Shown piece after piece: positions 1-42,319 of a stretch of 64,000 nucleotides of DNA (position 1 is its first letter; each line of letters starts with the position of its first letter). A program made the position numbers and the translations under genes. Under the pieces are notes generated by a model. The model was not told the DNA's origin, ran no database searches, and saw nothing but the letters and a program-made list of their open reading frames with translations. The DNA comes from Crassaminicella thermophila (GTDB lineage: Bacteria > Bacillota > Clostridia > Peptostreptococcales > Thermotaleaceae), in contig NZ_CP042243.1 of assembly GCF_008152325.1 (NCBI RefSeq), positions 248,001 to 312,000 of the forward strand, in the 5' to 3' direction.

Positions 1-2393
1 TCCCTGAGTATATTGTGAATTTTACTTCTAGAATGGCACAATCTTTTCATGGGAAAATGGACATGTTTTCAAATGAGATAAAGAATTGGAAATTAAGAGG
101 ATATAAAACGATTTTATTATGCGGGACAGAGGAAAGAGCAAAAAGATTAGAAGAAAGTTTAAAAGAAAGAGGGATTGAAACTATTTATTTTAAAGAAGTG
201 AATCACATTATTCAACCAGGTCAAGTTTTTATCCTTCAAGGGAATTTAACAAAAGGATTTGAATATTATAGCAATAAATTCTTGGTTATTACAGAAGATG
301 AAATTTTTGGCACAGCAAAAAAGAAAAGAGTTTCTAAGAAAAGAAAAGATGCTCGTCCAATCAAATCATTTATGGACTTAAAAATAGGGGATTATGTTGT
401 TCATGAAAATCATGGAGTAGGAAAATATGTAGGTGTAGAACAATTAAAAGTACAAGGAGCCAAAAAGGATTATCTAAAATTAAAGTATTCTGGTGAAGAT
501 CTATTATATGTTCCTATTGAACAAATGGATATGGTTCAAAAATATATTGGTGCTGATGGAGCTGTACCGAAATTAAATAAATTAGGTGGTACAGAATGGA
601 AGAAAACAAAGGCAAAAGCTAAAGGCGCTATTATAGATATGGCAAAAGATTTGTTAAAATTAAATGCAATCCGTCAAACAACAAAAGGACATGCTTTTTC
701 ACCAGATACGCCTTGGCAGAAGCAGTTTGAAGATAGTTTTCCCTATCAAGAAACGCCGGATCAGCTTAGATGTATAAAAGAAGTAAAAATGGATATGGAA
801 AAGCGTGTTCCAATGGATCGCCTACTTTGTGGGGATGTTGGATATGGGAAAACAGAAGTGGCAGTAAGAGGTGCTTTTAAATGTGTTATGGATGGAAAGC
901 AGGTAGCATTTTTAGTACCTACAACAATACTTGCACAACAGCATTATAATACATTTGTCCAAAGGTTTAGTCAATTTCCAATTACAATAGAAATGTTAAG
1001 CCGATTTAGAACAGATAAGCAGCAAAGTGAAATCATCAATAAAGTACGTGCAGGGGTTGTGGATATTATTATAGGTACACACCGTATGTTATCGAAAGAT
1101 GTTGTTTTTAAAGACTTGGGATTGTTAATTATTGATGAAGAGCAAAGATTTGGAGTGCAGCATAAAGAAGCATTGAAGAAGCTTAGAAAAAATGTAGATG
1201 TATTAACTCTAACTGCTACACCTATTCCAAGAACTTTGCATATGTCGTTAATCGGGCTTAGAGATATGAGTGTTATTGAAGATCCTCCTGAGGAAAGATA
1301 TCCAGTACAAACTTATGTCTTAGAGTACAATGAGGAGATTATAAGAGATGCAATTTTAAGAGAATTAGGAAGAGGAGGACAGGTTTTCTTTGTATTTAAT
1401 CGAGTAAAAGGAATTCAGCAAATGGCTGCTAAAATAAGAAATTTAGTTCCAGAGGCAAGGGTTGCTGTTGGACATGGACAGATGAGTGAAAGACAATTAG
1501 AAAATATTATGCTTGATTTTATGAATGGAGAATATGATGTTTTAGTTTGTACTACAATTATTGAGACAGGCTTAGATATATCTAATGTAAATACTATAGT
1601 TATTTATGATGCAGATAAAATGGGTCTCTCACAATTATACCAGTTAAGAGGCAGGGTTGGAAGATCTAATAGATTAGCTTATGCTTATCTTACTTATCAA
1701 AAAGATAAGATACTGACGGAAGTTGCAGAAAAAAGATTAAAAGCAATTAAAGAATTTACTGAGTTTGGGTCAGGATTTAAGATAGCTATGAGAGATCTTG
1801 AGATAAGAGGAGCAGGAAATCTGTTAGGAAGTGAACAACATGGGCATATGGCGGCTATTGGATATGACCTATATTGTAAACTATTAGAAGATACAGTGAG
1901 AGAAATGAAGGGAGAACAAATAGAGGAAATAACAGAGGCAAATATAGAAATTAATGTAAATGCATTTATACCTGAAAAATATATTATGAATGAAAGTCAT
2001 AAGCTAGAGATTTATAAAAAAATTGCTTCTATTCGAGATAAACAGGATGCTTATGATTTAGAAGAAGAAATAGAAGATAGATTTGGAAATATACCACAGC
2101 CTGTGATGAACTTAATTTCTATTGCATACATTAAAGCAATGGCACAAAAACTTGGTATTGTGCACATATCAGAAACAGATACCCATGTAAAATTGGAATT
2201 TGATAAAGGAAGTCGAATGAATCCTATGCTCATTAGTGAAATGATAGGACTTTATGGAAATAGAATCCATATAAATGCTAGTGCAAATCCCTATATAAGA
2301 TTTACGTATTATTTTTATAATAATAGATTAAAAGAGATAAAAGATTTCCTAGAAAAAATTAGTGGTTTTAATAAGACTGAATTTCAGATATAA
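1..2393 (+). CDS. mfd: Transcription-repair coupling factor Mfd (5' end outside window)
   Basis: The frame is open from the first bases, so about 350 N-terminal residues (the UvrB-like part) lie upstream; the visible part is about 796 residues of a protein usually near 1,150. A CarD-like RNA-polymerase-interaction domain lies near residues 116-180 of the visible part. It is followed by the superfamily-2 translocase with Walker A LLCGDVGYGKTEVA, the DEEQ box LLIIDEEQRFGV and helicase motif VGRSNR. A TRCF C-terminal domain ends the protein. Mfd displaces RNA polymerase stalled at DNA lesions and recruits UvrA. It opens the conserved mfd-spoVT-ftsH gene block. No lesion is visible. Confidence 0.97.
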   Translation, partial: PEYIVNFTSRMAQSFHGKMDMFSNEIKNWKLRGYKTILLCGTEERAKRLEESLKERGIETIYFKEVNHIIQPGQVFILQGNLTKGFEYYSNKFLVITEDEIFGTAKKKRVSKKRKDARPIKSFMDLKIGDYVVHENHGVGKYVGVEQLKVQGAKKDYLKLKYSGEDLLYVPIEQMDMVQKYIGADGAVPKLNKLGGTEWKKTKAKAKGAIIDMAKDLLKLNAIRQTTKGHAFSPDTPWQKQFEDSFPYQETPDQLRCIKEVKMDMEKRVPMDRLLCGDVGYGKTEVAVRGAFKCVMDGKQVAFLVPTTILAQQHYNTFVQRFSQFPITIEMLSRFRTDKQQSEIINKVRAGVVDIIIGTHRMLSKDVVFKDLGLLIIDEEQRFGVQHKEALKKLRKNVDVLTLTATPIPRTLHMSLIGLRDMSVIEDPPEERYPVQTYVLEYNEEIIRDAILRELGRGGQVFFVFNRVKGIQQMAAKIRNLVPEARVAVGHGQMSERQLENIMLDFMNGEYDVLVCTTIIETGLDISNVNTIVIYDADKMGLSQLYQLRGRVGRSNRLAYAYLTYQKDKILTEVAEKRLKAIKEFTEFGSGFKIAMRDLEIRGAGNLLGSEQHGHMAAIGYDLYCKLLEDTVREMKGEQIEEITEANIEINVNAFIPEKYIMNESHKLEIYKKIASIRDKQDAYDLEEEIEDRFGNIPQPVMNLISIAYIKAMAQKLGIVHISETDTHVKLEFDKGSRMNPMLISEMIGLYGNRIHINASANPYIRFTYYFYNNRLKEIKDFLEKISGFNKTEFQI

Positions 2394-7770: not shown

Positions 7771-8013
7771 ATGAGATTAGATAAATTTTTAAAAAATGCT
7801 AGACTCATAAAAAGAAGAACTGTAGCGAAGGAAGCTTGCGATCAAAGCAGGGTCAGTGTAAATGGCAAGATTGCTAAGGCTTCTACGGAGGTAAAAGTAG
7901 GAGATATAGTAGCAATTACATTTGGAACAAGAACAACAAAAGTAGAAATAACGGCATTAGCAGAGCACGTTACAAAGGACTTTGCAAAAGAAATGTATCG
8001 TGTAATAGAATAG
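7771..8013 (+). CDS. rqcP: RqcP/YabO S4-domain RNA-binding protein
   Basis: This 80-aa protein consists almost entirely of an S4 RNA-binding domain (MRLDKFLKNARLIKRRTVAK, VSVNGKIAKAS). Homologues (RqcP, also called YabO or Hsp15-like) stabilise the P-site tRNA on obstructed 50S subunits during ribosome-associated quality control with RqcH. The start ATG follows CAGGAG. The last codons overlap the first copy of a 31-bp direct repeat that also contains the terminator. Confidence 0.93.
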   Translation: MRLDKFLKNARLIKRRTVAKEACDQSRVSVNGKIAKASTEVKVGDIVAITFGTRTTKVEITALAEHVTKDFAKEMYRVIE

Positions 8014-8036
8014 TACCTGATAAGGGTACTATTTTT
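8006..8036 (+). repeat. 31-bp direct repeat, left copy
   Basis: Thirty-one bases, starting TAGAATAGTACCTG, recur exactly at 8274-8304. The copy includes the last two codons and stop of rqcP plus its terminator. The two copies bracket the palindromic element at 8041-8264. Confidence 0.95.
8011..8036 (+). terminator. Terminator after rqcP (first copy)
   Basis: The stem AGTACC / GGTACT (extended by one T-A pair) has a TGATAAG loop and ends in TTTTT. An identical copy lies at 8279-8304. Confidence 0.85.
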
Positions 8037-8040
8037 ATTG

Positions 8041-8264
8041 CAAAATGAATTGAAAAATAACGCTCATAAACAAATCTTTAGAGAAAACTAAGATTCATAA
8101 TTTAAAAAAATCCTAACGCACCCAATCAAGACATCCTGTCTTGTAGGCTGCTGGCTTAGCGTCCATGCTAAGCCTACGGATTTTTCTGAAATTCTTCATC
8201 AAGTTTTCTTTACTAAAGCTTTGCAATTATTCGCTTTTATTTTTCATTCATAAATTTTATTTTG
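8041..8264. repeat. 224-bp imperfect palindromic element (MITE-like or structured RNA)
   Basis: The left arm (8041-8112) and the reverse complement of the right arm (8179-8264) align along most of their length. Shared blocks include CAAAAT, TGAAAAATAA, TCTTTAG or CTTTAG, GAAAACT and AAAAATCC. The centre contains two clean hairpins: CAAGACA-TCC-TGTCTTG at 8127-8143, and GGCTTAGC-GTCCAT-GCTAAGCC at 8153-8174. No ORF of note is present. The first 31 bases of the left arm (8044-8074) recur exactly at 42162-42192. This accounts for most of the 374-bp gap between rqcP and yabP. Confidence 0.8.
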
Positions 8265-8273
8265 CCTATAGTC

Positions 8274-8304
8274 TAGAATAGTACCTGATAAGGGTACTAT
8301 TTTT
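8274..8304 (+). repeat. 31-bp direct repeat, right copy
   Basis: An exact duplicate of 8006-8036, including the terminator hairpin and T-run. The copies start 268 bp apart. Confidence 0.95.
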
Positions 8305-42094: not shown

Positions 42095-42161
42095 AGAGAT
42101 AAGAAATTTTAAGAAGAAAAATAAAAAGAATGTTGAGTTTGCTGGCAAAGTTATATTTATC

Positions 42162-42192
42162 AATGAATTGAAAAATAACGCTCATAAACAAA
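42162..42192 (+). repeat. Solo 31-bp copy of the palindromic element's left end
   Basis: Thirty-one bases are identical to 8044-8074, but the match stops after ATAAACAAA. It lies in the 559-bp gap between lysS and 16S, which otherwise holds the lysS terminator and the rRNA promoters. Confidence 0.9.
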
Positions 42193-42319
42193 AGTCTGAA
42201 AAAAATGTTTTTGTTTAGAAAATTATAACATGAGAATTTTTTTTACAAAAAAACAAAAGAAAATATGAATATTTTCTAAGAAAGTACATATAATGGTTAA
42301 TGTGAGTTTTAAAACATAC

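Follow-up and report, generated by a model that had tools for sequence, protein, structure and literature searches.

In the 64,000-nucleotide stretch of the Crassaminicella thermophila genome analyzed here (the window), the feature following rqcP is very probably a copy of a MITE with IS1182-type ends (TCAGACTGTAGACAAA) in the rqcP terminator, a kind of element that usually sits between two complete copies of a stem-loop, the length of which varies. A sequence-only reading of this region had reported exact 31-bp direct repeats, the first including the rqcP stop codon and terminator, around a long imperfect palindrome with two clean central hairpins. Both observations were reproduced. A repeat search of the window located identical 31-bp repeats at 8006-8036 and 8274-8304, the first of which overlaps the stop codon of rqcP (ORF 7771-8013) and its terminator, and folding of the intervening sequence gave a long imperfect hairpin (MFE of -76.7 kcal/mol on the minus strand) with two internal hairpins at 8127-8143 and 8153-8174. 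Inspection of the letters placed a 25-bp hairpin, AATAGTACC-TGATAAG-GGTACTATT, inside each repeat (8009-8033 and 8277-8301). The ORF list of the window contains no ORF of at least 50 amino acids inside the element. The features are as follows.

8009 to 8033, plus strand: left copy of the duplicated rqcP terminator hairpin, holding the rqcP stop codon (stem of 9 bp, loop of 7; from the direct repeat)
8034 to 8276, plus strand: MITE, window copy, with about 16 bp of its left end gone (from 24 near-full genome copies and alignments)
8262 to 8276, plus strand: right terminal inverted repeat, degenerate in the window copy, consensus TTTTGTCTACAGTCTGA (same ends as IS1182-family elements)
8277 to 8301, plus strand: right copy of the hairpin, followed by the terminator T-run (from the direct repeat; letters checked)
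8055 to 8226, minus strand: match to Rfam RF01731, TwoAYGGAY (45.8 bits versus a gathering score of 43)
8153 to 8174, minus strand: predicted RNA hairpin 1, loop AUGGAC (letters checked; alignments of copies and across genomes)
8127 to 8143, minus strand: predicted RNA hairpin 2, loop AGGAU (letters checked; alignments of copies and across genomes)
42132 to 42199, plus strand: internally deleted MITE derivative of about 68 bp, its left part joined to the right end AGTCTGA (31-bp match, read by eye)

The true duplicated unit at rqcP is most likely the 25-bp complete terminator hairpin and not the 31-bp repeat. We read the outer 3 bp on each side as chance identity with element bases: the left terminus of the window copy is short by about 16 bp, so element-internal T's adjoin the hairpin and produce the 3-bp matches. 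Because the left end is lost, the boundary of this copy is itself incompletely readable. The gap behind rqcP was then compared with that of a relative, as the sequence-only reading had proposed, and in Anaerosolibacter carboniphilus a single terminator hairpin directly follows rqcP and the element is absent. The rqcP product of this species has 68% protein identity to that of the window, the highest similarity among the named genomes found; the relatives searched by DNA were all from outside the window's own genus.

The MITE family and its IS1182-type ends

The genome of the host (3.08 Mb, two contigs) was searched with the window copy. This search resulted in 24 near-full copies including that of the window, the other 23 at 90-95% identity to it, and, among the 50 matches listed, in shorter remnants at another 16 places. 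The other genomic copies, whose absence the sequence-only reading had named among the signs against it, are numerous, and together with the hairpin repeats flanking them they support its proposal of a non-autonomous, hairpin-forming element inserted with an unusually long target duplication. Pairwise identity among the copies is 84-95% (median 91%). Alignments that included the flanks gave a full length of approximately 260 bp, TGAGCTTGTTGACAAAG...CAGTCTGA, with a common element of TGAGCTTGTTGACAAAGTTATATTTAT...TTTTGTCTACAGTCTGA, and at up to 2 mismatches the genome contains 25 occurrences of the right-end motif, versus one of a reversed control pattern.

Both ends are kept in 14 of the 24 copies. 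Abutting direct repeats of at least 10 bp were found at 10 of these 14, or at 11 if a slip of 1-2 bp was allowed, and under neither rule did any of 182 mismatched flank pairs give a repeat. Counting the first base of the element as flank raised the number to 12 of 14, and a rule that counted this base as flank and allowed no slip gave 2 of 182 for the mismatched pairs. Many copies have one hairpin repeated on both sides, and each site has a hairpin of its own. Within the repeats, the six outer positions self-pair at a mean of 0.68 versus 0.40 after shuffling (maximum of 500 shuffles, 0.60), and 18 of the 19 copies keeping the right end have a stem of at least 6 pairs that starts no more than 2 bp from it (shuffled mean 8.0, maximum 13). 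A repeat of at least 10 bp is missing in 4 of the 14 copies with both ends under the stricter count, and many of the repeats are imperfect, as expected for old copies that share 84-95% pairwise identity. The family is thus short, multi-copy, dispersed and without its own transposase, and it has terminal inverted repeats and a target duplication, the window copy itself being without the left end. As far as the literature could be searched, this MITE family has seemingly not been described before. One copy (L022, 1050-1305) is found where an rRNA operon ends, some 190 bp away from the 3' terminus of a 5S rRNA gene (1495-1611, minus strand), and the derivative at 42132-42199 of the window precedes the 16S rRNA gene of an rRNA operon by about 425 bp.

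Profile searches of the host genome for an IS1182 transposase with PF13751, PF01609, and NF033551 all returned zero matches, and the MITE is apparently orphaned there. The link to IS1182 consequently rests on the ends and on target behavior. A transposase-bearing element was also sought at the five right-end matches outside the 24 copies, and at none of them was a matching left end with a transposase between identified; one of the five is the displaced right end of copy L025, one (L048) is an internally deleted derivative, and the rest were judged by eye. The displaced end (L052, 3312-3328; G000:C1:2867811-2867827) is separated from its copy by about 100 bp of other sequence, perhaps through a nested insertion.

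Loci of relatives that encode DDE_Tnp_1_6 (PF13751) have the same terminal sequence as the MITE. The end type shared by the MITE and the transposase-bearing elements is TCAGACTGT(A/T)GACAAA, and the left end of the IS1182 element in a genome from the window's taxonomic family (G007) is TCAGACTGTTGACAAAG, versus TGAGCTTGTTGACAAAG in the MITE. Two of the transposases (L234 and L205) score 449 and 464 bits against NCBIfam NF033551, "IS1182 family transposase" (cut-off 270), and two transposase pieces at a third locus (L194) match the same model at 204 and 221 bits, under the cut-off. The terminal sequence of the MITE is therefore that of IS1182 elements, and no match to NF033551 was found in the element or the genome. 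As no transposase gene was found in either, we refer to the element as a MITE with IS1182-type ends and not as a member of IS1182. DNA matches to the MITE in relatives were mostly short. Three were informative (L054, L057, and L067), two of them from a single genome (G031): a partial MITE-like copy that retains the right end (L054) and a derivative consisting of the ends only (L067). A further match (L055) covers one arm only. Readings of the feature as a group II intron, an integron cassette, or an IS200/605 element were set aside on general knowledge.

Duplication of whole hairpins by transposase-bearing elements

IS1182 insertion sequences with TCAGACTG-type ends resemble the MITE in having terminal inverted repeats, terminator-like hairpin targets, and whole-hairpin duplication, and the window element differs from them in having a structured RNA-like core in place of a transposase gene. 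The duplication was examined at 100 loci, after 10 that had been refetched as longer stretches were dropped, with elements defined by their ends alone. This sorting resulted in 38 elements from 16 genomes, 56 loci without such an end pair (distant families, fragments, or other ends), and 6 that reach a contig end; given the 56, the hairpin rule was tested for this IS1182 subgroup only. The 38 elements are not all independent, as 23 are from three genomes (G291, G143, and G007), and many were chosen because the genome held several copies. Several have their transposase in pieces, and intactness is not general among them.

Abutting direct repeats of at least 10 bp flank 32 of the 38 elements, with lengths of 13-34 bp. 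In 30 of these 32 the repeat is exactly as long as the best hairpin that begins at the right end of the element (r = 0.96), and in 31 of 32 a stem of at least 4 pairs begins at the outermost base (shuffled mean 0.7, maximum 4). Mismatched flanks of the same elements gave 2 repeats in 1406 pairs. In elements with these ends, the target duplication is usually the whole stem-loop, irrespective of its length. The remaining 6 of the 38 elements are without repeats, and at least four of them (L218, L227, L237, and L250) have unlike hairpins next to their two ends. A set of seven named elements, picked among 60 listed hits (of 1935 records) and including no Enterococcus or Listeria record, was examined in the same way. 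Five have exact hairpin repeats of 18-33 bp (L273, L274, L276, L278, and L279), and two (L275 and L277) have different hairpins at their two ends. The unlike hairpins at these six elements look as if recombination between copies had exchanged the flanks. Two neighboring insertions (L256 and L257) have one hairpin sequence in common.

For one of the named elements, the corresponding empty site could be identified. The element of a Lactococcus plasmid (L274) is flanked on both sides by the 18-bp hairpin AAGAACCTCTTGGTTCTT, and the DNA of its left flank is present in 36 Lactococcus plasmid records. Four other Lactococcus plasmids lack the IS, and in them the two flanks are joined directly, with a single hairpin at the join. 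The one-copy join is identical in these four at 122, 121, 120, and 120 of 122 bases, and two of them have one base changed in the hairpin. The insertion itself makes the duplication, as shown at this one site. Searches for empty sites with the flanks of L276 and L278 returned the source records only.

These data also bear on how else the repeats could have arisen. An element that prefers sites between existing tandem hairpins would be found between repeats that predate it. This account is refuted for the Lactococcus site by the four IS-free plasmids, which carry one hairpin each, and the single terminator hairpin after rqcP in Anaerosolibacter argues against it as well; no support for it was found, and we consider it barely credible. 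A transposase of another kind might have moved the MITE, such as an IS1202-like enzyme with long duplications of fixed length, and the long target duplications made by IS1202 count in favor of such a mover. In elements with the same ends, however, the length of the duplication follows the hairpin over a range of 13-34 bp, and the two transposases above the cut-off are IS1182 by NF033551, so that an IS1202-like mover is most improbable.

The feature might otherwise be a stand-alone TwoAYGGAY-type RNA gene, with its terminator duplicated by recombination and without transposition. The body does exceed the gathering score of RF01731, and cores in five genomes (G010, G003, G012, G014, and G045) are without IS1182 ends at up to 4 mismatches on both sides within approximately 320 bp. 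The copies of the host, however, have IS1182-type ends and hairpin duplications that differ by site, and derivatives exist that have the ends but no core (L067 and that at 42132 of the window). We therefore regard a stand-alone gene as very unlikely. The sequence-only reading had offered a structured RNA gene with a copied terminator as its alternative; the structured RNA is partly borne out, in that the body matches Rfam TwoAYGGAY, and the rest is not, as the terminator was copied by insertion and not within an RNA gene.

The TwoAYGGAY core of the MITE

The match of the window copy to RF01731 was missed by a fast Rfam search at the gathering threshold and was found by a slower, sensitive search. 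Its score is borderline, and the outer stem of the alignment contains many non-pairs. Twenty of the 23 other copies were scanned, of which 12 match RF01731 at E<=0.1; two of these exceed 43 bits (L015 at 43.7 and L025 at 43.2), and the 18 under that score consist of 10 lower matches and 8 without a match at E<=0.1. Loop 1 is AYGGAY in 22 of the 24 MITE copies and loop 2 is the shorter AGGAY, also in 22 of 24, with variation in the loops falling mainly at the pyrimidine positions.

A custom model of the core (R1) gave 13 matches outside the host genome, in 6 of the 297 genomes examined, one of which (L294, G010) coincides with a locus that had supplied a row of the model. An alignment of 12 cores was then assembled from the window, 10 of the 13 R1 matches, and L286. 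In this alignment 88.3% of pair cells are paired versus 70.1% after shuffling, and there are 62 double changes, as compared with 20.8 on average after shuffling and no more than 18 when the partner is slid, numbers to be read with the leaning of rows recruited by a structure model towards the structure of that model. Further pair types in the 12 cores show no clear excess (31 versus a shuffled mean of 28.8, reached in 131 of 500 shuffles). The two core hairpins are kept in other genera by paired changes. Hairpins with A-Y-G-G-A-Y loops and covariation, the marks of RF01731, are present, and judged from these alignments the two-hairpin core is conserved as a structure across genera. Like TwoAYGGAY, the MITE core has a longer stem that encloses two hairpins, each with GGA in its loop, and it exceeds the gathering score; it differs in its borderline score, its poorly paired outer stem, its IS1182-type ends, and its 24 copies.

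The core and the ends are seldom found together elsewhere. Among 12 RF01731 loci in other genomes, one has IS1182-type ends on both sides at up to 3 mismatches. This locus (L286, 1444-1701), in a genome of another family (G023), is a 258-bp element with ends at 1 and 3 mismatches around a TwoAYGGAY-like core. One of the 13 R1 matches, in the same genome (L298, approximately 1402-1735), has a left end with 2 mismatches to that of the MITE and a right end that fits less well (5 mismatches), and it is flanked on each side by the hairpin GGCTCCGTAAAGGA(T/G)CC. In most relatives the core is without IS1182-type ends. Since so few RF01731 or R1 loci have these ends, TwoAYGGAY is not in general IS1182 cargo. 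The most economical interpretation is the capture of a TwoAYGGAY-type element between IS1182 ends. At two loci of one contig (L281 and L288; G066:C104) TwoAYGGAY matches 307 bp apart share long identical stretches, indicating a tandem duplication. At three other loci (L296, L297, and L305) TwoAYGGAY-like cores are enclosed by long inverted repeats whose ends resemble ATTTGTAAAAA...TTTTTACAAAT; these loci possibly represent a different family of small mobile elements.

TwoAYGGAY appears in a table of PMC2864571 as probably RNA, and in PMC4333381 CsrA binding is proposed for it on the basis of motif matches. The host genome encodes one csrA (L292, 80 bits). It is plausible that the MITE is a mobile candidate CsrA-binding RNA, and if the TwoAYGGAY core truly binds CsrA, transposition would be tied to the spread of a regulatory RNA. 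We consider it rather unlikely that all parts of a fuller account hold together, in which IS1182-type transposases cut at a four-way junction with the stem-loop as the duplication, and the MITE, by this gentle way of landing in which a terminator survives, has spread a TwoAYGGAY-type putative CsrA-binding RNA to about two dozen gene ends as a mobile CsrA sponge or decoy in a relative of Clostridium.

The gene to the left of the MITE reads towards the element in 21 of 24 copies, with read-through giving the strand opposite TwoAYGGAY, and co-directional neighbors are biased 17 to 1; transposase-bearing IS1182 elements show no orientation bias (6 to 9). The same tendency is seen among 25 TwoAYGGAY loci elsewhere, some of them neighbors in one contig and with genes taken from our own ORF calls: of the 24 that have a downstream gene, 19 have it on the opposite strand. 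This bias could reflect selection against co-transcription of the putative CsrA-binding strand, or it could reflect a functional RNA on the other strand from TwoAYGGAY. The balance of G-U versus A-C pairs on the TwoAYGGAY strand gives a mixed signal, 13 to 4 in favor of that strand in the alignment of MITE copies and 4 to 11 against it across genomes.

Proposed joining at hairpins and probable effect on host genes

The two points at which a DDE transposase joins are normally separated by a set distance, and target duplications usually have a constant length dictated by the enzyme. In the present elements, duplication length (13-34 bp) tracks how the target folds, an indication that DNA structure is recognized. 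Strand transfer likely takes place at the two 5' feet of an extruded cruciform, which would adjoin at the four-way junction for any hairpin length. As the feet would be adjacent whatever the length of the hairpin, gap repair would copy the whole hairpin to both sides.

The closest comparison is with IS1272 and TnSha1 of staphylococci, members of the IS1182 family that, like the MITE, target stem-loops, several of them terminators, with no primary sequence preference in the accounts of PMC4923244 and PMC5678879. In those accounts IS1272 deletes or replaces the stem-loop without duplication, whereas here the stem-loop is kept and copied; it is present twice at the insertion, and no replacement of the IS1272 type is seen. 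PMC4923244 describes a blunt deletion and no target duplication for IS1272 and TnSha1, and PMC5678879 argues that IS1272 joins at the 3' feet, with loss of the stem-loop. Joining at the 5' feet is drawn in the Discussion of the latter, a 2017 model, as a hypothetical "pathway b" for which no example is given there, and this branch, hypothetical in that Discussion, fits many of the natural insertions described here. The family is not uniform, as ISCaa15, a member of IS1182, is listed with 4-bp repeats in PMC3196728. A printed example of whole stem-loop duplication by IS1182 elements was not found in the open-access literature searched. ISfinder lists IS1182 repeats of variable length (0-60 bp) and palindromic targets, and part of the hairpin-duplication rule may thus already be familiar to curators. 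The variable-length duplication offers a natural, testable case of a mechanism met in print only as a hypothetical branch.

Whole-hairpin duplication further suggests a way for an element to occupy terminators while leaving termination intact. The right copy of the hairpin keeps the T-run and the original downstream sequence and would remain a terminator. The left copy is followed by element bases and loses the T-run, by which the element would join the 3' region of the upstream gene. Consistent with such a loss, a T-run of at least 4 ending at the left boundary is lacking in all 38 IS elements and in 13 of 14 MITE copies, the exception being L010. In the window copy, the loss of the left end would have put T's behind the left hairpin again.
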